From: Candidatus Neomicrothrix sp. UBA7388
GTDB taxonomy: Bacteria; Actinomycetota; Acidimicrobiia; Acidimicrobiales; Poriferisodalaceae
Length of the DNA: 17,211 nucleotides
Direction: 5' to 3'
NCBI GenBank assembly: GCA_002470695.1
Contig: DKNM01000019.1
Coordinates: forward strand, 104,170 to 121,380
A model generated the notes under the pieces. That model ran no database searches. It had not been told where the DNA came from and worked only from the letters and a program-made list of their open reading frames with translations. Below are positions 1,974-10,990 of the stretch, piece by piece. The position numbers and the translations under genes are program-made. Position 1 is the first letter of the stretch. Every line of letters begins with the position of its first letter.

Positions 1974-3383
1974 ATGCAATCAAAGTCAACCTCCCCGCTC
2001 ATCGATAAAGAAATTGTTGCAAGAACATTGGCTTCGGCAATGAAAAACGGTGGAGAGTGGGCCGAAGTATTTGTGGAAGACCGTCAAAATGCTTCAGCTG
2101 ACTTCGACGAGGGGCGCGTCGAAGCGATGACCTCTAGCCGAGATTTAGGTGCTGGCATCCGCGTCACGGTCGGAGAAGTAACGGGCTTTGCTCATACGTC
2201 AGATCTCAGCCCAGCCGGCCTCGATGAAGCCGCACGCGCGGCAGCAGCTGCTGCCAAGGGGAGCACTATGAACATCCCTATTGCTCTAAGGGGCTCTGGA
2301 ACCTCCAAAAATAATGTTGCTATTCCGCCATCTTCCGTACCGAAGTCAGAAAAAGTAAAGCTGCTCAGGTTAGCCGACGCCTCCGCTCGAGCCGAAGATC
2401 ATCAAATTACCCAGGTAAACGTTAGATATTCCGAAGGTTGCAGGCAGGTGCTTGTTGCGAACACAGATGGAGTTTTTAATGCAGATAACCAAACCAGAAC
2501 TCTGCTATCCGTCAACTGTGTTGCAAGCGGAGATCAAGGACTCCAAACCGGTCGCGAAACCGTCGGGTACACCGTGGGTTTTGAGTTGTTCGATGAGCAC
2601 GATATTGAAGCGATGGCCCGTCGGGCTGCCAACCGGGCGATCACCAAGCTCTTGGCCCGACCTGCGCCCAGTGGTCAACTGCCAGTGGTGATAGAGAAAG
2701 GCGGCGGTGGTGTGCTTTTCCATGAGGCCTGTGGACATGGCTTGGAAGCTGACCTGGTAAACAAAGGCGCTTCGGTTTTTCGTGATCGTTTAGGTGAACT
2801 AGTAGCGGACCCCTCGGTAACCCTTGTCGACGATGGCACAATGGGGGTTGAGTGGGGGACCGTCGCTATTGACGACGAAGGATGTCCAACCCAAAAAAAT
2901 GTCCTTATAGAAGATGGCGTACTGACTGACTACATGTGGGATCACATGCGCAGCCGAGCAGAAGGTCGCTCTCCGTCGGGAAATGGTCGTCGTCAGAGTT
3001 ACCAGCATCTTCCGATGGTGAGGATGACGAATACCTTCGTGATGAATGGTGAGGTGGAACCTCAAGCGATAATTAGTGATACAAAAAGCGGCGTTTATGT
3101 GGCCCAGCTAGGAGGCGGACAAGTTAATACAGCTACCGGCGATTTCGTGTTTGGGATGACAGAGGCATACCTGATCGAAAACGGCGAAATTACGACACCG
3201 CTCCGAGAAGGAAACCTCATCGGTAATGGTCCCGAAGTTCTCAAAAATATTGAGGTAATTGGTAACGACTTTGCAATGGGTAGTCCTGGAACTTGCGGCA
3301 AAGATGGTCAAGGCGTCCCCGTAGGAGACGGCCAACCGACCCTGCGAGTCGCTGCCCTAACTATTGGTGGGACTGCAAATTGA
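1974..3383 (+). CDS. tldD: TldD, metalloprotease subunit of the TldD/TldE complex
   Basis: 469 residues, close to the usual 480 of TldD. The zinc motif HEACGH (HExxxH) lies at residues 250-255 inside the glycine-rich context GGGGVLFHEACGHGLEAD. The third zinc ligand expected from the E. coli structure appears as Cys441 in GTCGKDGQ near the C-terminus. TldD pairs with catalytically inactive TldE in a heterodimeric cytosolic protease that degrades unfolded peptides. In E. coli it also trims the microcin B17 leader and degrades the CcdA antitoxin. The start is ATG at 1974, preceded by TTGAGGA at 1963-1969. tldE follows with a TTGA overlap, so the subunits are probably translationally coupled. 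The 59-base gap to the divergent flippase-like gene must hold the promoters for both directions. Confidence 0.95.
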   Translation: MQSKSTSPLIDKEIVARTLASAMKNGGEWAEVFVEDRQNASADFDEGRVEAMTSSRDLGAGIRVTVGEVTGFAHTSDLSPAGLDEAARAAAAAAKGSTMNIPIALRGSGTSKNNVAIPPSSVPKSEKVKLLRLADASARAEDHQITQVNVRYSEGCRQVLVANTDGVFNADNQTRTLLSVNCVASGDQGLQTGRETVGYTVGFELFDEHDIEAMARRAANRAITKLLARPAPSGQLPVVIEKGGGGVLFHEACGHGLEADLVNKGASVFRDRLGELVADPSVTLVDDGTMGVEWGTVAIDDEGCPTQKNVLIEDGVLTDYMWDHMRSRAEGRSPSGNGRRQSYQHLPMVRMTNTFVMNGEVEPQAIISDTKSGVYVAQLGGGQVNTATGDFVFGMTEAYLIENGEITTPLREGNLIGNGPEVLKNIEVIGNDFAMGSPGTCGKDGQGVPVGDGQPTLRVAALTIGGTAN

Positions 3384-4729
3384 AAGAAGCCGTCGAACTC
3401 CCAGATCTTGCAAATGGGCTCCTTTCGGTAGCGCATGACAGCGAGCAAATAGAAGTCTGTGTTTCGAGAAACCGCAGCACTTCGGTGAAGGCATATCAGG
3501 GAGAAGTTGAATCTATTAAGTCAGGTATGACGGAAGCCGTAGGAGTCAGAGTCATCGTTGATGGTCGGCAAGGTTTTGCTAGTGCAGGCTCGCTCGAGCC
3601 ACGTGTCCTGAGTCAATTAATTGATGAGGCTCGAGAAAATCTTAAATTTGCCGAACATGACCCGTATCAAGAGCTGGCGTCACCGGATGGGGTTGCCCCC
3701 CCAGGATTACTTCTAAGCGATCCAGCAATCCGCTCCATATCGGAGAGTCATAGAGCAGCTGTAGCTATCGAACTTGAGAAACGCTGTTTGGCGGCGGATC
3801 CGCGTGTTAAAAATGTTCGCTCTGCTTCTTGGTCAGACGGGTGGGGTGAGTTCGCACTTGCTTCGACTTCGGGTATTTCAGTTCACAGCGAGGGTGGAAG
3901 TTGTTCGGTTGGTGTTCAGCCGCTGGCTGAAGATGGAACTGAAACTCAAATTGGTTTTGCTGGAGACGCTGCACGACGACCGGATGGTTTGGATTTAGAT
4001 CGGGTAGTCAATGAAGCCGTCGAGGGCGCAACTGGCATGCTGGGGGCTACTCAACCGGACACCGAATCGGTCACTGTTGTCTTGGAGCCGTCGGTGACAG
4101 CGGCATTTTTGGGAATCGTCGCAGGTGCTCTTACGGGCGATCGGGTGATAAAGGGAAGGTCGCCATTCGCAGAACGTTTAGGTGAGTCGATCGCAGCGGC
4201 CGCTTTGCAGTTAGTAGATGATCCTACAGATATTGATTCGCTTGGTGCTGATAACCATGATGGAGAAGGATTAGCGACTCGTGTTAACTCAATCATCGAA
4301 AACGGTGTCCTTTCCAAGTTTCTGCATAACTCTTATACAGCTCGTCGTGCGGGTGAAATATCCACCGCCTCTGCGGTGCGAGGTACTCGATCGACGCCCG
4401 GAGTTGGGCTGCATGCTCTTTCATTAGTTCCTGGCACGGCAACTCGACAACAACTATTCGACGAAGTAGGGGATGGGATCTTCATTCGTGGGGTGAATGG
4501 TCTCCACAGCGGAGTTAACCCTATTAGCGGGGATTTTTCAGTGGGAGCTTATGGGCACCGTATCGCCGGTGGGGAGCTCGGAGAGCCTTTTCGTGAGGCG
4601 ACGATTGCTTCGACACTCCAGCGAATGCTTCTGGACATAGAAGCGATTGGGGGCGATTTTGAGTTCTTACCTAACGGATCCGGAATGGCCTCGATCGTGA
4701 TCAGTGGTATCGCGCTATCCGGTAGTTGA
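3380..4729 (+). CDS. tldE: TldE/PmbA, non-catalytic subunit of the TldD/TldE protease
   Basis: 449 residues from TTG at 3380, matching the roughly 450 of E. coli PmbA. The frame can be extended upstream to 3293, but that stretch reads as an Arg/Pro-rich shadow of the TldD C-terminus. The TTG at 3380 overlaps the tldD stop as TTGA and has GGTGGG at 3366-3371 upstream, so it is preferred. The sequence aligns in layout with TldD (N-terminal RNRSTSVKAYQGEVESI region, then the TAAFLGIVAGALTGDRVIKG core, then a C-terminal FSVGAYG segment). It lacks the HExxxH motif, as expected for TldE, which shapes the substrate chamber rather than binding zinc. Cytosolic. The next gene starts 45 bases downstream on the same strand. 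Confidence 0.92.
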   Translation: MKEAVELPDLANGLLSVAHDSEQIEVCVSRNRSTSVKAYQGEVESIKSGMTEAVGVRVIVDGRQGFASAGSLEPRVLSQLIDEARENLKFAEHDPYQELASPDGVAPPGLLLSDPAIRSISESHRAAVAIELEKRCLAADPRVKNVRSASWSDGWGEFALASTSGISVHSEGGSCSVGVQPLAEDGTETQIGFAGDAARRPDGLDLDRVVNEAVEGATGMLGATQPDTESVTVVLEPSVTAAFLGIVAGALTGDRVIKGRSPFAERLGESIAAAALQLVDDPTDIDSLGADNHDGEGLATRVNSIIENGVLSKFLHNSYTARRAGEISTASAVRGTRSTPGVGLHALSLVPGTATRQQLFDEVGDGIFIRGVNGLHSGVNPISGDFSVGAYGHRIAGGELGEPFREATIASTLQRMLLDIEAIGGDFEFLPNGSGMASIVISGIALSGS

Positions 4730-4774
4730 CTGACTGAAGGCGAATCACCCGAGGTCATTGCTACCCTGCTTCAC

Positions 4775-5488
4775 GTGCCATCTATACCCACTCCCGAAGC
4801 GGTTGAACGCCACCCGCACCTAGGAGAAGCCTGTCCCGAGGGTTGGGTCAGAGTTGATTTCCATTCCCACACAATGTGGTCAGGCGATTCGACAACAACC
4901 CCTGAGGAATTAGTTGAATGTGTAGCTGCGTCTGGGATCGACGTTCTATGTGTGACCGATCACAACGCAATAAAGGGAGCTGAGGCGCTCGTCGAACAGT
5001 TGCCGTGTCGAGTAGTTATAGGGGAAGAGCTAAAGACCCACGCAGGCGAAATAATCGGTCTTTTCTTGAATGAGCGAATCCCCCAAGGAATAAGACCTGA
5101 AGAGGCAGCTCAAAACATCCGTGATCAAGGCGGCATCGTATACATACCGCATCCCTTTGATCCGTTGCGGAATAACTTACGCGAGGACGTTCTCGACCAA
5201 CTTGTTGAAGCGAGTCTCGTTGACGGTATCGAGGTGATAAACGGAAAAACGAGTCTTCAAAGTCTGAATCGACGCGCCTATACCTACGCGCAAGAAAACG
5301 ATTTGGCGATAGGAGCGGGAAGCGACGCTCATGTTGCTGAGGCAATAGGCGCCGCGTATATGGAAATGCCTGACTTCGAAACTCCGCAAGAATTTTTGGC
5401 AGCAATGCGGCTTGGGCAACCAGTTGGCCATTTCTACGACCCTCCGAGGCGCTGGAAACCGCGCATTGTGCCGTCGACAGCAGATTAA
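4775..5488 (+). CDS. PHP-domain metal-dependent phosphoesterase
   Basis: 237 residues from GTG at 4775. The PHP metal-site motifs are in order: HSHTMWSGD at 30-38, TDHN at 61-64, Glu84/Glu85 in GEE, His89, IPHPFD with His126, and GSDAH with Asp184 and His186. All ligand positions expected of the fold are present, so it is likely an active di- or tri-metal phosphoesterase. Stand-alone proteins of this size include nucleoside 3',5'-bisphosphate and histidinol-phosphate phosphatases; nothing visible picks a substrate. The N-terminal 25 residues precede the first strand of the domain. No clear ribosome-binding site is seen just before the GTG; GAGG at 4751-4754 is too far. It lies between tldE and uppP on the same strand with short gaps, so co-transcription is plausible. 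Confidence 0.85.
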   Translation: MPSIPTPEAVERHPHLGEACPEGWVRVDFHSHTMWSGDSTTTPEELVECVAASGIDVLCVTDHNAIKGAEALVEQLPCRVVIGEELKTHAGEIIGLFLNERIPQGIRPEEAAQNIRDQGGIVYIPHPFDPLRNNLREDVLDQLVEASLVDGIEVINGKTSLQSLNRRAYTYAQENDLAIGAGSDAHVAEAIGAAYMEMPDFETPQEFLAAMRLGQPVGHFYDPPRRWKPRIVPSTAD

Positions 5489-5518
5489 CTTTACCTACCT
5501 TCAACGAATGCGATAACT

Positions 5519-6346
5519 ATGCCGATATTCCACGCAATCGTTTTGGGAGTAGTTCAAGGTCTTACGGAATTCATCCCAGTATCTTCAAGCGGACATTTGG
5601 AGGCTGTTCCGTGGTTACTTGGATGGAAGGATTTCGCTGGAGATCCCAGACTAGAAAACACTTTTGATGTAGCTCTGCACCTAGGAACCTTAGTTGGTTG
5701 CCTTATAAGCCTTTGGAGCGATGTAAGCAGATACTCGAAGGCGGGAGTCAAAGCGTTGACGGGGCGCGGTAAGTGGACGAATGATGCAAAGGTGTCAATT
5801 CTGATTATCGCAACTGCTGTTCCGGCATCGCTTTTTGCAGTGTCATTGGAGTCTTTCCTGCTCAAGCAGGGCGAACGAATAGGAATAATTGCCACATGCC
5901 TGATTATTTTTGGCGTTGCTTTGTGGCAAGTGGATAAGCGGGCCCCGGCAAAACGCGTTGTGACGGATTTATCTTTTCGACACACGCTTGGCTTGGGCTT
6001 AGGACAGTGCTTAGCTCTATTGCCCGGCGCGAGCCGCTCTGGTGTTGCAATAACAACCGCTCGATCACTCGGATATGAGCGAACGGGCGCCGTACGTTTA
6101 GCATTCCTGATGGGTCTCCCCATTATTGCGGGTGCGGCGCTTTTTCGATCGGTAGGAGTCGTGGCTGATGGGATGCCACCAGACGTTTGGCCAGCGTTAC
6201 TGATAGGAGCAGTTGCGTCGGGGGTAACAGGCTGGTTGGCGCTCAGGACAATGCTTAATTGGGTGCATTCGAGAAGCTATTTGGGATTTGCGTTATATCG
6301 AATTCTTTTCGCAACAGTCCTTTTGGGTGCGTTGACAGCTCAGTGA
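5519..6346 (+). CDS. uppP: Undecaprenyl-diphosphatase UppP (BacA)
   Basis: 275 residues, a usual family length, very hydrophobic throughout. Both diagnostic motifs are present: GLTEFIPVSSSGHL at 14-27 with Glu17 and His26, and LPGASRSG at 168-175 with Arg173 followed by ARSLGYER. UppP dephosphorylates undecaprenyl diphosphate at the membrane, recycling the lipid carrier for peptidoglycan and other glycans; overexpression gives bacitracin resistance in model species. The start is ATG at 5519, 30 bases after the PHP gene stop, with no strong ribosome-binding site. The gene ends 19 bases before the stop of the convergent zinc-ribbon gene. UppP is structurally unrelated to the PAP2 protein at 59-883, so the window encodes two lipid-phosphatase-like families. 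Confidence 0.95.
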   Translation: MPIFHAIVLGVVQGLTEFIPVSSSGHLEAVPWLLGWKDFAGDPRLENTFDVALHLGTLVGCLISLWSDVSRYSKAGVKALTGRGKWTNDAKVSILIIATAVPASLFAVSLESFLLKQGERIGIIATCLIIFGVALWQVDKRAPAKRVVTDLSFRHTLGLGLGQCLALLPGASRSGVAITTARSLGYERTGAVRLAFLMGLPIIAGAALFRSVGVVADGMPPDVWPALLIGAVASGVTGWLALRTMLNWVHSRSYLGFALYRILFATVLLGALTAQ

Positions 6347-6365
6347 AAGCTTGTTCGTCGCTGAA

Positions 6366-6674
6366 CTAGTCGCTCGTAGAACTTGAACTGCTGCCTGAGC
6401 TCTTTTCCTTTGTTGTACTTGAGGAGGTCTTAGTTTCCGTAGTACTTGATTTAGCGGAATCTCCCGAGCTCTCTGAACCAGTGGACTTTCCGCTGCTAGA
6501 TCTGCTGTCGTTTTTATAGAACCCGCTGCCCTTGAATGCTATTCCCACATTGCCGAAAACTTTTTTTACCGGGCCGCTACAGACTGGACAGATGCTAATA
6601 GGGTCATCGCTAAACGACTGACGCACTTCAAACTGGTGTTCGCACTCGGTGCACCGGTATTGGTAGGTAGGCAT
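6366..6674 (-). CDS. FmdB-family zinc-ribbon protein with serine-rich tail (Ruc-like)
   Basis: 102 residues from ATG at 6674. A TTG two codons earlier is possible, but MPTYQYRC is the standard family start. The N-terminal half is a CxxC...CxxC zinc ribbon with Cys8, Cys11, Cys29 and Cys32. From about residue 54 the protein is low complexity, mostly Ser/Thr with Lys, Glu and Gly, and is predicted to be disordered. The Mycobacterium tuberculosis protein Rv0991c (Ruc) has the same plan and is a redox-regulated chaperone: cysteine oxidation releases zinc and turns on anti-aggregation activity that cooperates with the Hsp70 system. Ruc also lies close to, and divergent from, a moeA gene, as here. 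The chaperone role is inferred from architecture and neighbourhood; many FmdB proteins elsewhere are uncharacterised. Confidence 0.87.
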   Translation of the reverse strand: MPTYQYRCTECEHQFEVRQSFSDDPISICPVCSGPVKKVFGNVGIAFKGSGFYKNDSRSSSGKSTGSESSGDSAKSSTTETKTSSSTTKEKSSGSSSSSTSD

Positions 6675-6792
6675 TATCAATTAAGCTTTTCGTTAATCCT
6701 AGGGGCCGACGGAAATTGTAGCGATGACTGGGGGCACCTACACAAAGCGCTGCTCTTGAGACTCCGAAGTCTATAACCGCTAGATTGCCTTC
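6675..6792. promoter_or_regulatory. Divergent intergenic region between the ruc-like gene and moeA
   Basis: About 118 bases separate the two start codons, so the promoters for both directions should be here. A possible minus-strand -10 reads TACAAT (6720-6715) and a possible plus-strand -10 reads TATAAC (6772-6777). No convincing -35 box is found at normal spacing for either. The plus-strand box would place the start of transcription very near the moeA ATG, and no Shine-Dalgarno sequence precedes it, so moeA may be leaderless or nearly so. Confidence 0.25.
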
Positions 6793-7986
6793 ATGATTTC
6801 GCTTGAAGAGGCAAGAGCATATGTAATGGACGCTTGTGGGCGTCGACCGAAGATTTCGACCAAAGTCTCGGAGGCATTGGGGTTAGTAACGGCAGAAGAC
6901 GTGATCGCTCGGGAATCACTTCCTCCCTTTGCCAATACTGCGATGGACGGTTTCGCAGTTCGGTCTGAAGATTTGCAAGACACTCATACGCGACTACGCG
7001 TTGTTGAAACGATTGCAGCGGGTCATAACCCCCAAAAAACACTTCACCCAGGGGAAGCAAGCCGAATCATGACAGGTGCTCCAGTGCCAGTTGGAGCTGA
7101 CGCCATCGTAATGGTCGAGAAAACATCGGTCGATGGGGATTGGGTGACAGTCGAAGGTTCTGTGACGCCTGGAAATCACATACGACCGGTTGGTGACGAC
7201 GTTGCTGCTAACGATTTGGTCTTTTCCAATGGCTCGGTCCTTAGCGCGGGGCATCTGGGAGTCCTATGTAGCCTTGGAATCAACGAGATAGCTACGTACC
7301 CTCGACCGCGAGTTGGAGTTATCTCAACCGGCGATGAACTTGTTGACGATGGTAGGGACTTGGAACCTGGCCAAATTCGCGACTCGAACAGACGAACGCT
7401 TCTCTCGTTGGCGCGTGGCGACGGATTTGACCCAGTTGATCTCGGTTTGATCCCAGATATTGAGAGCGAAATTGAGGCTGCACTCCTAGCAGGGATTGAA
7501 AGTTGTGACGCGATAATTACATCTGGTGGCGTCAGCATGGGTGACTACGACTATGTCAAGGCTGTGCTAACCAGGATTGCCGATATGCGGTGGATGCAGA
7601 TTGCCATCAAGCCGGCAAAGCCTTTGGCGTTTGGAACGGTTGGCGAGACACCTATTTTTGGATTACCTGGTAACCCGGTTTCTTCGATGGTTTCATACGA
7701 ACTTTTTGCTCGGCCTGGATTGCGATCGATGATGGGGTTTCCTCACCCTGTGAGAACTTCTCTTAAAGGTGTAGCGGCTGGAGCTTTGACAAGAAAAGCG
7801 GATGGCAAAATTCATTACGCTCGAGTCACTGCTGAATTCGCTGACGGCGATTTGATTGTGACTCCCATGTCGGGGCAGGGTTCTCACATGCTTGCTTCCA
7901 TGGCGCGGGCAAATGCCCTTGCCGTCCTTCCTGATGGCGAAGGGTGCAATGAGGGGGAAACAGTTCAAGTCCTGCTTCTTGACTGA
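6793..7986 (+). CDS. moeA: Molybdopterin molybdotransferase MoeA / gephyrin-like protein (possible Glp)
   Basis: 397 residues, full length for MoeA. Visible motifs are PPFANTAMDG at 44-53 with Asp52, STGDE at 178-182, SGGVSMGDYD at 244-253, KPAKP at 273-277 and GLPGNPVS at 290-297, followed by the C-terminal domain. MoeA inserts molybdate into adenylylated molybdopterin to give molybdenum cofactor in the cytosol. The residues normally linked to catalysis appear intact. In Corynebacterium glutamicum a MoeA homologue named Glp binds the FtsZ tail and the membrane receptor GlpR and acts in cell division. A GlpR-like gene lies three genes downstream here, so a division role is possible. Sequence alone does not separate the two roles. 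It is the first gene of the plus-strand group, divergent from the zinc-ribbon gene. Confidence 0.93.
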   Translation: MISLEEARAYVMDACGRRPKISTKVSEALGLVTAEDVIARESLPPFANTAMDGFAVRSEDLQDTHTRLRVVETIAAGHNPQKTLHPGEASRIMTGAPVPVGADAIVMVEKTSVDGDWVTVEGSVTPGNHIRPVGDDVAANDLVFSNGSVLSAGHLGVLCSLGINEIATYPRPRVGVISTGDELVDDGRDLEPGQIRDSNRRTLLSLARGDGFDPVDLGLIPDIESEIEAALLAGIESCDAIITSGGVSMGDYDYVKAVLTRIADMRWMQIAIKPAKPLAFGTVGETPIFGLPGNPVSSMVSYELFARPGLRSMMGFPHPVRTSLKGVAAGALTRKADGKIHYARVTAEFADGDLIVTPMSGQGSHMLASMARANALAVLPDGEGCNEGETVQVLLLD

Positions 7987-8031
7987 CAAGCCGAGTGTCA
8001 GCAAGTGCAACGGCGTCTATCTAGGTACGCT

Positions 8032-8036
8032 AGAGG
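8032..8036 (+). promoter_or_regulatory. Ribosome-binding site setting the moaA start
   Basis: AGAGG lies 4 bases before the ATG at 8041. It favours that start over the in-frame GTG at 8005, which has no such element and would add 12 basic residues not expected in the family. Confidence 0.5.
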
Positions 8037-8040
8037 CAGT

Positions 8041-9039
8041 ATGCAACCGCAATCCAGTGCAGAGGACTTAATCGACCCACATGGGCGCACAGTCCGTGAT
8101 CTTAGAATTTCTGTCACTGATCGTTGCAATTTCCGTTGTCAGTACTGCATGCCGGCTGAAGGAATGCAGTGGTTGCCCCGCGAAGAAATTCTCTCGTTTG
8201 AAGAGATTGAGCGTTTTGCGCGGATATGTACCGAGCACTTTGGTTTTGATGGAATTCGGCTGACGGGAGGGGAACCTCTGGTACGAGCCCACCTTCCTGA
8301 GTTAGTCCAGCGTCTTGCAAGTCTGAACGTAGACATTGCGCTTACTACAAATGGAGCGACGCTTCGGCTCCACGCAGCGGCGCTTGCTAAAGCGGGACTG
8401 AAGCGCATCAACATAAGCCTTGACTCGCTAAGGCGTGATCGTTTTTTAGAACTGACGAGGCGCGATGAGCTAGATCGCGTAATGGATGGAATTGATTCGG
8501 CATTATCCGCCGGCTTGAATCCAGTCAAGATCAACGTAGTGATGATGCGAGGAATTAATGATGACGAGATAGTGGATTTCGCTCGCTTTGGAAGAGAGAA
8601 GGGTGTCACTGTTCGCTTCATTGAATTCATGCCACTCGAGGCAGGCGATGTCTGGAATGAGAGCCTTGTAGTCCCAGCGGAGGAAATCGTTGAGACGATT
8701 AACGATGCGATTCCTATGGAGCCGATTACTCGCGGCAGTGAACCAGCTGAACGTTGGCGCTATACGGACGGTAATGGGGAGGTAGGTGTCATCGCCTCTG
8801 TTACACGCCCATTTTGTGGAAATTGCGATCGAGTGCGCATAACCGCTGAAGGGCAATTTCGAACTTGCCTGTTTGCGGTGGACGAGTTTGATATGCGAAC
8901 CCTTCTACGAGAAGAAGCTGACGATAATAAGTTAGTTGAAGCAATCAAAGCTGCGGTCGGGACAAAATGGGCGGGCCATTCAATTGGCCAAGTGAATTTC
9001 ATTCGTCCAAGCCGGACCATGAGCCAAATCGGGGGATGA
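8041..9039 (+). CDS. moaA: GTP 3',8-cyclase MoaA (radical SAM)
   Basis: 332 residues from ATG at 8041. The radical-SAM cluster motif CNFRCQYC gives Cys29, Cys33 and Cys36 (CxxxCxxC). The second [4Fe-4S] cluster, which holds GTP, is formed by Cys259, Cys262 and Cys276. The LTGGEPL motif follows the first cluster, and the protein ends in Gly-Gly, the C-terminal signature needed for MoaA activity. MoaA converts GTP to 3',8-cyclo-7,8-dihydro-GTP in the cytosol, the first step of molybdenum cofactor synthesis. All key residues are present, so it should be active. The stop codon is one base from the moaC ATG, so the two are almost certainly co-transcribed. The gap from moeA is about 54 bases. Confidence 0.96.
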
Positions 9040-9040
9040 C

Positions 9041-9529
9041 ATGAACGAAACCGGCGGCCCCGAACTCACTCACCTAGATGCGGCGGGACATGCCCATATG
9101 GTTGACGTCTTATCAAAAGAAAAGACGAGAAGGCGGGCAGTTGCGCAGTGCAGCGTTTCAATGTCTGAGCAAGCGGCTTCTGCTATCGCAAACGGCGATG
9201 TCGTTAAGGGCGACGTTCTTGCTGTAGCTCGGGTGGCGGGTATTCAGGCGGCAAAGCGCACTGCAGATCTGATCCCACTTTGTCACCCATTGATGATCGG
9301 AGCGGTATCAATCGAATTCGACTTAGAAGAGAGAAGCGTCCGGATAGCAGCCTCCGTAGAAACTCTTGAAAGAACTGGCGTCGAGATGGAGGCTTTGACT
9401 GCCTGTTCAGTTGCGGCTCTCACAATTTATGACATGTGTAAGTCGATTGATAAAGGAATGACAATCGGGGAGCTCACACTTCTGGAGAAAACTGGCGGAA
9501 AATCTGGTACGTACTCCCGCGACGAGTAG
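9041..9529 (+). CDS. moaC: Cyclic pyranopterin monophosphate synthase MoaC
   Basis: 162 residues, the normal MoaC length. Family signatures include DLIPLCHPL at 77-84 with His82, [11 protein letters not shown] at 110-120 with Glu115 and Glu117, YDMCK at 130-134 with Asp131 and Lys134, and KTGGKSG near the C-terminus. These correspond to the active-site residues of E. coli MoaC. MoaC takes the MoaA product to cyclic pyranopterin monophosphate in the cytosol. The start is ATG at 9041 with GGGGG at 9031-9035, an appropriate Shine-Dalgarno overlapping the end of moaA. MoaD, MoaE and MogA/MoaB are not in this window, so the rest of the pathway must be elsewhere. Confidence 0.96.
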
Positions 9530-9702
9530 CACAATTTTAAACCGCTAATAGGCCCATTTAGATATTGCATCATTCGAGCGGGCTCGTAATAATAAAGGGC
9601 GCACCCCGTTAGAAGTTCTCTTGGAGAGTCGGAAGACGGTTTGCCTTTTAGCCACACGCTGCCAACTGGGCTAGCAGAATAAAGGAGAGGAGGACGAGTC
9701 AC
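9530..9702. other. Non-coding gap between moaC and the sepX/glpR-like gene, with one perfect palindrome
   Basis: The gap is 173 bases and has stops in all plus-strand frames. It holds a 12-base perfect palindrome-like element CGAGC-GG-GCTCG at 9575-9586, with no T-run after it, so it could be a weak hairpin or an operator. A second small hairpin CTCT-TGG-AGAG sits at 9618-9628. A promoter for the following gene is expected here, but I could not define one with confidence. Confidence 0.3.
9687..9693 (+). promoter_or_regulatory. Strong ribosome-binding site of the sepX/glpR-like gene
   Basis: GAGGAGG lies 9 bases before the TTG at 9703 and is the best Shine-Dalgarno match in the window. It supports the TTG start, since no ATG or GTG lies at that point. 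Confidence 0.7.
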
Positions 9703-10215
9703 TTGACAGAGATAGTCCTTCTCGCGTTAGTGGCCATCTGGGCTGTAGTTCTTGTGCCCGGGTGGATACGTGCTTTTCTCGATCGAGGTGGGCGACGCAC
9801 CCCGATGACGGCTTGGCGCAAGCAACTAGACACTCTTTCTGGCTCCACCCCAGCTGCTGGAATACCAGCACCTTTTGGGGCGCGTGTAGCAACGGTAGAT
9901 CGTCGAGGGATTTATTTGCGGCCTCGTAGTTCAATACCGACCAACAGCCGCGAAGCAGCTGTGCGGCGACGAGACGTTTTACGTCTCCTAATCTTTGGCG
10001 CCGCAATGACGCTCTTCGGCTGGCTGGCCGGTGGTATAGCGATAGTTGGCATTACGCACGTAGGTCTCGACTTAGCTCTTCTTGGCTACTTGTTTCTATT
10101 GAATCAACGCCGCAAAAAAGAAGTCTTAAGGCTTGCTCAGATTCACTTCTTGCAACCTCAAGTGGCTGTCGCAGGGGAAGCTAGCGAGGGTGACAGTGAA
10201 CAAATCGCTACTTAG
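9703..10215 (+). CDS. Divisome membrane protein of the SepX/GlpR family
   Basis: 170 residues from TTG at 9703. Layout: a membrane segment near 4-21 (AIWAVVLVPGWIR context), a basic stretch to about 45 with a QLDTLSG element, a linker, a basic RRRD at 88-91, two adjacent membrane segments near 92-110 and 112-136, and a short polar tail. This three-helix plan, with an N-terminal W-A-x-x-L-V-P-x-W-(I/L)-R signature, matches my recollection of SepX of Streptomyces and GlpR of Corynebacterium. Those are membrane proteins of the division site; GlpR is the receptor for the MoeA-like protein Glp. Known family members are longer, mainly in the linker. Clustering with moeA and moaC fits the known neighbourhood. 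There is no enzymatic motif. The family call rests on a recognised signature plus context, not a search. Confidence 0.72.
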   Translation: MTEIVLLALVAIWAVVLVPGWIRAFLDRGGRRTPMTAWRKQLDTLSGSTPAAGIPAPFGARVATVDRRGIYLRPRSSIPTNSREAAVRRRDVLRLLIFGAAMTLFGWLAGGIAIVGITHVGLDLALLGYLFLLNQRRKKEVLRLAQIHFLQPQVAVAGEASEGDSEQIAT

Positions 10216-10294
10216 CTTGTCGAGTTAACGCGACGAGTATGATTCTGGGCCTTCTGCATTGTTCAGTTTTCCGGTATCGTCCAAAGGTCCCTTT
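10216..10294 (+). promoter_or_regulatory. Possible promoter for tRNA-Ala, overlapping a hairpin
   Basis: TATGAT at 10238-10243 is one mismatch from a consensus -10 box. TTGTCG at 10217-10222 could be a -35, but the spacing is only 15 bases. The same region forms a 7-base-pair stem (10216-10222 with 10231-10237, one G-T pair) around an 8-base loop just after the preceding stop codon, without a T-run. The two readings (promoter or weak terminator) cannot be separated by eye. Confidence 0.3.
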
Positions 10295-10367
10295 GGGGGT
10301 GTAGCTCAGTTGGTAGAGCGCTTCGGTCGCATCGAAGAGGCCAGGGGTTCAATTCCCCTCACCTCCA
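10295..10367 (+). tRNA. tRNA-Ala (anticodon CGC)
   Basis: A 73-base cloverleaf. The acceptor stem GGGGGTG pairs with CACCTCC and includes the G3-U70 wobble that is the alanyl-tRNA synthetase identity element. The D-arm is GCTC-AGTTGGTA-GAGC. The anticodon stem CTTCG/CGAAG encloses the loop GTCGCAT with U33 and anticodon CGC, reading GCG codons. The variable loop is AGGCC, and the T-arm is AGGGG-TTCAATT-CCCCT. The discriminator base is A. No CCA is encoded (CTC follows), so CCA must be added by nucleotidyltransferase. The sco ATG lies 32 bases after the 3' end with no terminator between, so read-through is possible. Confidence 0.96.
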
Positions 10368-10399
10368 CTCGAATCTTTAGCAGTTTCTGGCGTTATCGA

Positions 10400-10990
10400 A
10401 TGACGCGCCTGGCCCGATTCATCCTCCTCGTACTTCTGATTTGTGGATGCGGTAATTCCAGCGAGCCGGGAATATATGCGGGCTTGGAAGTTTCCGATCC
10501 CTCTGTAATGCCTAATCCCATATTGACGGACACAAACGGGCAACCTTTTGCAATGAAAGCTGATACGGAAGGGTCGGTCAGACTCGTTTACTTCGGCTTT
10601 TCATCTTGCCCCGATATTTGTTCAGTTCATCTGGCTCAATTGAGTGACGTTATAGATCGTCCCGGCATGCCTCCAAACATCACCGTAATCTTTGTGACCG
10701 TCGACCCAGACGTCGATACGCCTGAAGTGATGCGGTCTTTTCTTGACCAATTCAATAGTGACTTTGTTGGATTGACAGGTACGAAAGAAGAGTTGGTTGA
10801 GGCCCAGCGTCAGTTTTCTGCGCTAATCGCTTCGCCTGTATTGGACGACGAAGGCCAAATGGAAACAATAGGACATGATGGTCGGGTCTTTGCGTTCTCG
10901 CCCGACGGAATTGGGCGCACGCAATACCCACATCCCACGAGACAAACGACCTGGACGCGAGACTTACCCATCCTTGCGAGCCTCCGATAG
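10400..10990 (+). CDS. SCO1/SenC/PrrC-family copper chaperone lipoprotein
   Basis: 196 residues from ATG at 10400. The frame can be opened further upstream, but that would run through the tRNA gene, so this ATG is chosen. An N-terminal signal with lipobox ICGC and Cys17 predicts a lipoprotein anchored on the outer face of the membrane. The thioredoxin-like domain carries the copper motif CPDIC (Cys70 and Cys74) and the distal ligand His159 in GHDGRVFAF. These are the three residues used by SCO proteins to bind copper. SCO delivers copper to, or reduces, the CuA site of cytochrome c oxidase. The CtaG gene follows 47 bases downstream, which supports an oxidase-assembly role. Oxidase subunits themselves are not in the window. 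Confidence 0.9.
   Translation: MTRLARFILLVLLICGCGNSSEPGIYAGLEVSDPSVMPNPILTDTNGQPFAMKADTEGSVRLVYFGFSSCPDICSVHLAQLSDVIDRPGMPPNITVIFVTVDPDVDTPEVMRSFLDQFNSDFVGLTGTKEELVEAQRQFSALIASPVLDDEGQMETIGHDGRVFAFSPDGIGRTQYPHPTRQTTWTRDLPILASLR

Follow-up and report, generated by a model that had tools for sequence, protein, structure and literature searches.

Introduction

The membrane protein SepX is needed for the cross-walls of Streptomyces and has been suggested to stabilise the divisome together with DynB, according to excerpts of the published account (PMC8748795). In Corynebacterium glutamicum, GlpR binds Wag31 directly, and the FtsZ-binding loop of the MoeA-family protein Glp spans Met361 to Tyr369; according to excerpts of the same report, glp and glpR occur together in the genomes that have them, and Glp is largely confined to Actinomycetes (PMC10522489). 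A further study, likewise in excerpt, places Glp where there are at least two copies of MoeA (PMC11733289). Ruc (Rv0991c) of M. tuberculosis is defined, in the excerpted description, by a four-cysteine zinc ribbon and a disordered hydrophilic tail (PMC7448276). Here we describe a stretch of 17,211 bases (the window) in which an fmdB/ruc-type gene stands divergent from moeA, and in which moeA is followed by moaA, moaC and the gene of a 170-residue SepX/GlpR-like protein.

With moderate confidence, we read this locus as an old actinomycetote neighbourhood, in which a working moeA-moaA-moaC operon has a Ruc/FmdB gene divergent to it at one end and a diverged sepX/glpR homologue as its last gene, GlpR having come first and Glp later. 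Established here are the gene order, the family relation of the 170-residue protein to SepX/GlpR, a sole MoeA of catalytic type, and the presence of glpR-like genes in genomes that lack MoeA. Since the window MoeA is not Glp, and since glpR is also found in MoeA-less genomes, the pairing of glpR with moeA/moaC would be old and Glp a later addition.

The window (∼51% GC) lies on contig C75 of a 2.31-Mb genome in 144 contigs (91% completeness). Its closest named relatives are metagenome-assembled genomes (MAGs) of Acidimicrobiaceae/Acidimicrobiales, for example marine actinobacterium MedAcidi-G3, and the source organism very probably belongs to the Acidimicrobiales, outside class Actinomycetes. 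This agrees with an earlier note, written by a model from the letters of the DNA, which had considered a deep-branching actinomycetote.

Genes of the cluster

6366..6680, minus strand: fmdB/ruc-type gene, four-cysteine zinc ribbon and Ser/Thr-rich hydrophilic tail, divergent from moeA (PF09723, E 3.3e-16; TIGR02605 (CxxC_CxxC_SSSS), 1.5e-20)
6793..7986, plus strand: moeA, with no other MoeA found in the genome; keeps 12 of the 13 active-site residues compared, without the Glp FtsZ-binding loop (MoeA_N, MoCF and MoeA_C domains)
8005..9039, plus strand: moaA (GTP 3',8-cyclase), radical-SAM CxxxCxxC motif, C-terminal GG (TIGR02666, 385 bits, cut-off 284)
9041..9529, plus strand: moaC (cyclic pyranopterin monophosphate synthase; TIGR00581, 208 bits, cut-off 141.5)
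9703..10215, plus strand: SepX/GlpR-like membrane protein of 170 amino acids, TTG start after a GGAGAGGAGG ribosome-binding sequence (family-level profile evidence)

The earlier note had predicted these five genes, including a serine-tailed zinc-ribbon gene divergent from moeA and a moaA-moaC pair inside the group. All five lie where it had placed them, the identities that it gave to fmdB, moeA, moaA and moaC are those returned by Pfam and NCBIfam, and the position of moaA-moaC recurs in relatives.

Relation of the 170-residue protein to SepX/GlpR

For the last gene, the earlier note had proposed a search by hidden Markov model, the outcome of which depends on whether the protein is taken alone or with its family. 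Scanned alone, the protein matches no Pfam family, and it matches SepX_GlpR_2 marginally (E 0.0037; 17.3 bits against a cut-off of 150, the curated cut-offs of the NCBIfam SepX/GlpR models being 110-160 bits). At the family level the relation is clear. Homologues at 65-74% identity occur in 18 others of the 99 Acidimicrobiales genomes searched (the order set), and the window protein was aligned with 40 relatives from the order, giving 41 sequences. When these 41 were scanned singly, 37 matched SepX_GlpR_2, 31 SepX_GlpR_1, 29 SepX_GlpR_4 and 16 SepX_GlpR_3, with a best E-value of 5.2e-14; CcmI was also matched by 6/41, and other families by a few single members.

The relation also holds in the opposite direction. 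A profile built from Acidimicrobiales sequences only recovers the syntenic SepX proteins of a mycobacterial-type locus (L124, E 6.6e-8) and of Streptomyces-type loci (L127, 3.6e-10; L126, 1.1e-5), and reference SepX proteins among these exceed the curated cut-offs (L124, 339 bits on SepX_GlpR_1; L126, 227 bits on SepX_GlpR_2). Alignment of the Acidimicrobiales family with 18 mycobacterial- and Streptomyces-type SepX sequences by hhalign gave 96.1% over 48 columns, against control values of 0.3% (family with UppP), 0.1% (family with CtaG) and 1.8% (SepX with UppP). An RRR motif before or at helix 2 is common to the GlpR-like relatives.

We therefore take the 170-residue protein as a divergent SepX/GlpR homologue that falls far under every NCBI naming cut-off. 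An unrelated small membrane protein, having its position alone in common with SepX/GlpR, would fit the marginal lone match and the lack of a Pfam family. Six further Acidimicrobiia members match significantly yet also stay under the curated cut-off, and the hhalign value drops to 73.9% over 22 columns when the six closest sequences are used alone. Nevertheless, we regard such an unrelated protein as highly improbable, given the profile evidence in both directions, the hhalign result with its controls, the RRR motif and a C-terminal tail common in relatives, and the synteny across the phylum.

The earlier note had described a three-helix membrane protein. By hydropathy, the protein is hydrophobic at its N-terminus and again over roughly residues 91-133, and an AlphaFold2 model places three helices as follows:

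9706..9783, plus strand: predicted helix 1, residues 2-27 (AlphaFold2 and hydropathy; low model confidence)
9946..10032, plus strand: predicted helix 2, residues 82-110, starting inside the conserved RRRD region (AlphaFold2 and hydropathy; low model confidence)
10036..10146, plus strand: predicted helix 3, residues 112-148 (AlphaFold2 and hydropathy; low model confidence)

Hydropathy and model thus agree with the description, and because the mean predicted local distance difference test score (pLDDT) is 58, the three helices are likely rather than certain.

Many relatives end in a tail of the form R..A(N/G), found in 31/54 Acidimicrobiales, 2/6 other Acidimicrobiia and 6/9 other actinomycetote members, against a background of 4/350 control proteins and 340/6439 open reading frames (ORFs) of all kinds; as the pattern was defined after the tails had been inspected, it describes them and does not test them. 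The tail was also considered as a MoeA-binding peptide, which found no support (tail present in 26/44 loci with MoeA and in 5/14 otherwise; Fisher p 0.22).

The window MoeA: catalytic enzyme or Glp

The window MoeA is, by its sequence features, a single-copy MoeA of catalytic type and not Glp. Three places in the genome match PF00994, namely the window MoeA and two others that read as CinA-like and MogA-like. Across the order set, MoeA_N exceeds its cut-off in 91/99 genomes, always in one copy and never in two; a second match, below the cut-off, occurs in G044, G047 and G069.

Thirteen positions of E. coli MoeA were compared: D59, T100, R137, D142, E188, D228, D259, K275, K279, P298, P301, R350 and S371. 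Nine were taken from mutant names in PDB titles; D259, K275, P298 and P301 are positions that we take to belong to the E. coli active site. The window MoeA keeps 12 of the 13, K275 being replaced by Q. The mycobacterial-type Glp proteins of L124 and L125 keep 9/13 and differ at D228, D259, K275 and K279; that of L124 matches the Glp structure 8BVE at 523 bits. Among 55 MoeAs encoded next to glpR (the window included; counted by eye), 53 keep both D228 and D259, Streptomyces-type proteins among them; those of L124 and L125 do not.

The window MoeA also lacks the loop by which Glp binds FtsZ; by sequence comparison, its own loop at that place is shorter and holds neither the Met nor the Tyr. Its best matches by sequence among solved structures are gephyrin (221 bits) and E. 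coli MoeA (217 bits), followed by C. glutamicum Glp (168 bits). The genome holds seven matches to the molybdenum cofactor-binding family PF02738, two of them partial, so that a working MoeA is to be expected. The cofactor operon is thus likely to be a working one, as the earlier note had assumed.

Both catalytic acids, D228 and D259, are still present in the Streptomyces-type MoeA encoded beside sepX (L126, L127, L153), in contrast to Glp of the mycobacterial type, so that active-site loss may be confined to the mycobacterial side.

Two other ways of telling catalytic MoeA from Glp were set aside. Foldseek returned gephyrin, E. coli MoeA and 8BVE/8BVF alike at E-values of about 1e-33 to 1e-36 (model pLDDT 69.6), and the NCBIfam Glp model, on which the window MoeA reaches 374 of the 475 required, carries a name that is spread over several phyla. 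Plasmid records use the product name 'gephyrin-like molybdotransferase Glp' for MoeAs from, among others, Shinella, Rhizobium, Bacillus and Moraxella; borne by such varied genera, the name is not indicative of a division protein.

A tree of 81 MoeAs, 52 of them from Acidimicrobiia and with no C. glutamicum row included, placed all 52 in one clade (ultrafast bootstrap, UFB, 98). Both Glp rows join a pair of mycobacterial paralogues (86) inside a clade of 14 Actinomycetes-side rows (UFB 99).

GlpR-like genes in genomes without MoeA

The GlpR profile, 41 training sequences of which were drawn from the same 99 genomes, matches 90/99 of the order set with an E-value of 0.01 or less. Seven order genomes (G016, G046, G060, G071, G083, G086 and G093) yielded no MoeA and no over-cut-off MoaA. 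Four of these, G046, G060, G071 and G083 (92, 97, 97 and 96% complete), carry a GlpR-like gene, with E-values from 4.6e-23 to 2.7e-38; none of the four contributed to the training set, and their genes also match SepX_GlpR_2 at 6e-8 to 1.2e-11.

In family f23 of the order, to which G060 belongs, MoeA is missing from all seven sampled genomes, and a GlpR-like gene is present in six; beyond G060 these are G291, G305 (at 1.6e-8), G313, G374 and G384, but not G379. The MoeA-less Acidimicrobiia genome G282 (97% complete, no MoeA_N candidate) retains tldD-pmbA-uppP-fmdB-galU-moaC-glpR (L133); moaC there still adjoins glpR, though neither MoeA nor MoaA was found in the stretch.

These genomes bear on the proposal that the GlpR-like protein serves at the membrane as anchor or adaptor for synthesis of the molybdenum cofactor (Moco) or for molybdenum enzymes, with the division role in Streptomyces and Corynebacterium derived. 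Such a protein would suit a gene that ends a moeA-moaA-moaC operon in 39/61 order stretches, in a genome that encodes Mo-cofactor-binding proteins. It is hard to square with the four genomes above that have a GlpR-like gene but neither MoeA nor over-cut-off MoaA, and with five of the six further MoeA-less genomes of family f23, and we consider it quite unlikely.

The search was extended to a phylum sample of 296 genomes, for which at least 90% completeness was asked, with a second GlpR profile that included three Moco-less sequences. GlpR was matched at E 0.001 in 138/296; 114 GlpR-positive genomes (E up to 2e-10) were kept and 24 weaker ones left out. Within the Acidimicrobiia part, 25 genomes have one MoeA, seven none, and none two or more. 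Among the 82 genomes of other classes, 42 have one MoeA, 36 two or more, and four none. GlpR thus occurs without MoeA in 11/114 genomes, two of which are shared with the order set; G225 and G283 count as MoeA-less since the list of 248 genomes with a match does not include them. These data show agreement with the published range of Glp, but the GlpR-like genes, as identified by sequence, extend well past it. A full-text literature search for SepX or gephyrin-like together with Acidimicrobi returned no paper, and published supplementary tables may hold part of this distribution.

Where the place of the best MoeA is listed (68 phylum genomes), moeA lies within 15 kb of glpR in 50 and farther away in 18. 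Such closeness in most genomes checked would be expected if the catalytic MoeA of Acidimicrobiia moonlights, making cofactor and also docking on GlpR, and perhaps on FtsZ, at the septum, much as gephyrin docks on its receptors, with Glp a later specialisation. The FtsZ of the window genome, a single match to an ORF ending in ...DVPSFLK, has its tail intact. Excerpts of the published work on Glp and gephyrin indicate that the fold is capable of such a role (PMC10522489, PMC11733289), and, in the excerpted C. glutamicum study, removing the disordered C-terminal region of GlpR gives part of the phenotype seen when Glp is lost (PMC10522489). On the other hand, the window MoeA lacks the FtsZ-binding loop, glpR persists without MoeA in the 11 genomes just counted, and the presence of the C-terminal tail shows no clear association with that of MoeA in the locus. 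A moonlighting MoeA is in our judgement rather unlikely; if true, it would be a genuine bacterial moonlighting gephyrin that links cofactor supply to division, and the non-catalytic Glp of Mycobacteriales would be a later offshoot of it.

In the window genome, a match to DivIVA (PF05103) lies on the contig that carries ftsZ. In genus g4 no PF05103 match was found in any of the 11 sampled genomes, although one is present in all further genomes sampled from the family. As 10 of these 11 carry GlpR, DivIVA as an obligate partner of GlpR is unsupported.

The neighbourhood across relatives

The neighbourhood was inspected in 61 Acidimicrobiales stretches, comprising 40 around GlpR matches, 20 picked for a missing, weak or distant MoeA or GlpR, and L128. 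The genes moeA, moaA, moaC and glpR stand together in 39 of the 61, with moaC on the opposite strand in L045 and moeA in L112. In named MAG loci, several of which are the same contigs as other loci in the set, the order fmdB-moeA-moaA-moaC-glpR is found in 18/21; of the three that deviate, L183 is truncated on its upstream side, the moaA of L195 is split in two, and in L199 glpR stands alone.

The mycobacterial-type cluster consists of FmdB, 5-formyltetrahydrofolate cyclo-ligase (5-FTHF cyclo-ligase), galU, moeA, rimJ and glpR, and the Streptomyces-type cluster of 5-FTHF cyclo-ligase, galU, moeA, moaC, rimJ and glpR. Together with a uridylyltransferase, fmdB, moeA, moaC and glpR form the common core; Acidimicrobiales and L129 additionally have moaA, placed between moeA and moaC. 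The inspection of gene order that the earlier note had called for therefore finds the neighbourhood both in Acidimicrobiales and across the phylum; its order is not unique to this genome, and the likeness to the mycobacterial and Streptomyces clusters that the note had pointed to is real.

The note had further described galU, rimJ and the 5-FTHF cyclo-ligase gene as missing. This stands for the window, in which phmmer found none of the three, nor a UDPGP-type enzyme. As a general statement it does not stand for galU, which is present in 41 stretches (34 on the Acidimicrobiia side and other loci, together with the mycobacterial and Streptomyces types), although in the window's own family it was found in L110 alone. 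No relatives of rimJ or 5-FTHF cyclo-ligase were found in the Acidimicrobiia stretches by single-sequence phmmer at E 1e-4; both are present in mycobacterial-type, Streptomyces-type and some other loci.

Eight stretches of the window's family (L034, L036, L037, L040, L071, L072, L073 and L111) carry between fmdB and moeA a UTP-glucose-1-phosphate uridylyltransferase of UDPGP type (PF01704, E 8e-29 and 1e-27 in the two scanned). L136, L197 and L198 also hold this enzyme in the place or neighbourhood of galU, which brings the total to 11 loci, or nine distinct stretches, two of them appearing again as named loci. The two enzymes never occur in one stretch (0 overlaps between 41 and 11 loci), which looks like a replacement in situ of one enzyme by a member of a different family. 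Between fmdB and moeA, the window and its closest relatives carry neither gene.

The remaining features beside the five genes are these:

6681..6792, no strand: divergent intergenic region, in which many relatives carry galU or a UDPGP-type gene (sequence scans)
10295..10368, plus strand: tRNA-Ala(CGC), downstream of the glpR-like gene
1974..6346, plus strand: upstream syntenic block tldD-pmbA-PHP hydrolase-uppP, retained beside the cluster in family relatives

Within the operon, moeA and moaA are separated by 18 bases and moaA and moaC by 1 base; the 173 bases between moaC and the glpR-like ORF (9530-9702) form its sole long gap, inside which neither a promoter match nor a terminator-like match was found. 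Over 6300-10450, promoter-like (sigma-70-like) matches number 0 against 2.9 expected, and terminator-like matches are at chance level (5 against 4.2).

Proposed origin of the Glp-GlpR module

The earlier note had argued that the Glp-GlpR division module is old. Its half concerning glpR beside moeA/moaC is upheld; that concerning Glp is not, as a single MoeA of catalytic type was found in the genome, with none of the published Glp signatures that were compared. In the history that we favour, the GlpR-like protein would be anchored by its three helices, with loop and tail inside the cell, and would support the Z-ring or a DivIVA-linked organisation of the membrane for which MoeA is not required, a division role in Acidimicrobiia that we infer by analogy. 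MoeA, MoaA and MoaC would here simply make cofactor. The direct link between Glp and FtsZ may have come later, in a Mycobacteriales-type lineage, in which Glp would have arisen by duplication and repurposing of the MoeA encoded beside glpR, with loss of catalytic residues and gain of the FtsZ-binding loop; recruitment of a neighbour would then be the likely origin of the module.

Several results pull against this history. The window MoeA falls under every NCBIfam MoeA equivalog cut-off (E. coli-type, 381 of 440; Glp, 374 of 475; actinobacterial MoeA, 350 of 560). D259 is replaced by E also in the mycobacterial non-Glp paralogues L156 and L167, and K279 by Q or R in many rows, so that single residues are weak markers, and D228 and the whole motifs (SGGVS, KPxKP, LPGNP) are more telling. 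The window protein lacks the R..A(N/G) tail of its 31 order relatives. Three of the seven order genomes without MoeA and MoaA (85-90% complete) have no GlpR match, and in the other four glpR lies outside the usual cluster, adjoining an ABC transporter gene in G060 and G083, so that its function there could differ. The closeness of moeA and glpR in 50/68 listed genomes would also fit a Moco-linked role. Finally, the tree places Acidimicrobiia MoeA beside that of the Proteobacteria E. coli, Halomonas and Shinella (UFB 89), and not with Actinomycetes. A proteobacterial origin was not kept, since in an approximately unbiased (AU) test with 44 rows and a mixture model a joint clade of Acidimicrobiia and the Actinomycetes side was not rejected (p 0.573) and scored slightly better; common, vertical descent thus remains compatible with the data.

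The occurrence of GlpR independently of MoeA separates the histories of Glp and GlpR, the membrane protein coming first and its enzyme neighbour being recruited later. In most sampled order genomes the GlpR-like gene is paired with a single catalytic-type MoeA, and a single MoeA is also what half of the other GlpR-positive phylum genomes have (42/82).

Comparison with known systems

The FmdB protein of the window fits the layout of Ruc, with four-cysteine zinc ribbon and hydrophilic tail, the latter probably disordered as judged from its sequence, and the side of the galU/moeA cluster on which it lies matches that of FmdB in the mycobacterial-type locus. Ruc of M. tuberculosis is an oxidation-activated chaperone under HrcA control. 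As a difference, no CIRCE element was found in the window with up to 3 mismatches to a CIRCE consensus; a chaperone role is putative here.

With SepX/GlpR of Streptomyces and C. glutamicum, the 170-residue protein has in common a W..VLVP motif in helix 1, the basic RRR motif at helix 2, its place downstream of moeA/moaC, and probably three helices with a loop between helices 1 and 2. Its loop and tail are much shorter, the C-terminal R..A(N/G) tail is missing, and no Glp was found in its genome.

The window MoeA is like Glp (8BVE/8BVF) in belonging to the MoeA family and in being encoded beside glpR. It differs from Glp in retaining the active site, in being the sole copy found, in lacking the FtsZ-binding loop, and in falling outside the Glp group. 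By sequence it is closest, among solved structures, to catalytic MoeA (E. coli, 1FC5/1G8L) and to the E domain of gephyrin, and differs from the E. coli enzyme in having Q at K275 and in an operon that includes a SepX/GlpR-like gene. The locus thus offers a comparison case for gephyrin, the other instance of a MoeA turned scaffold.

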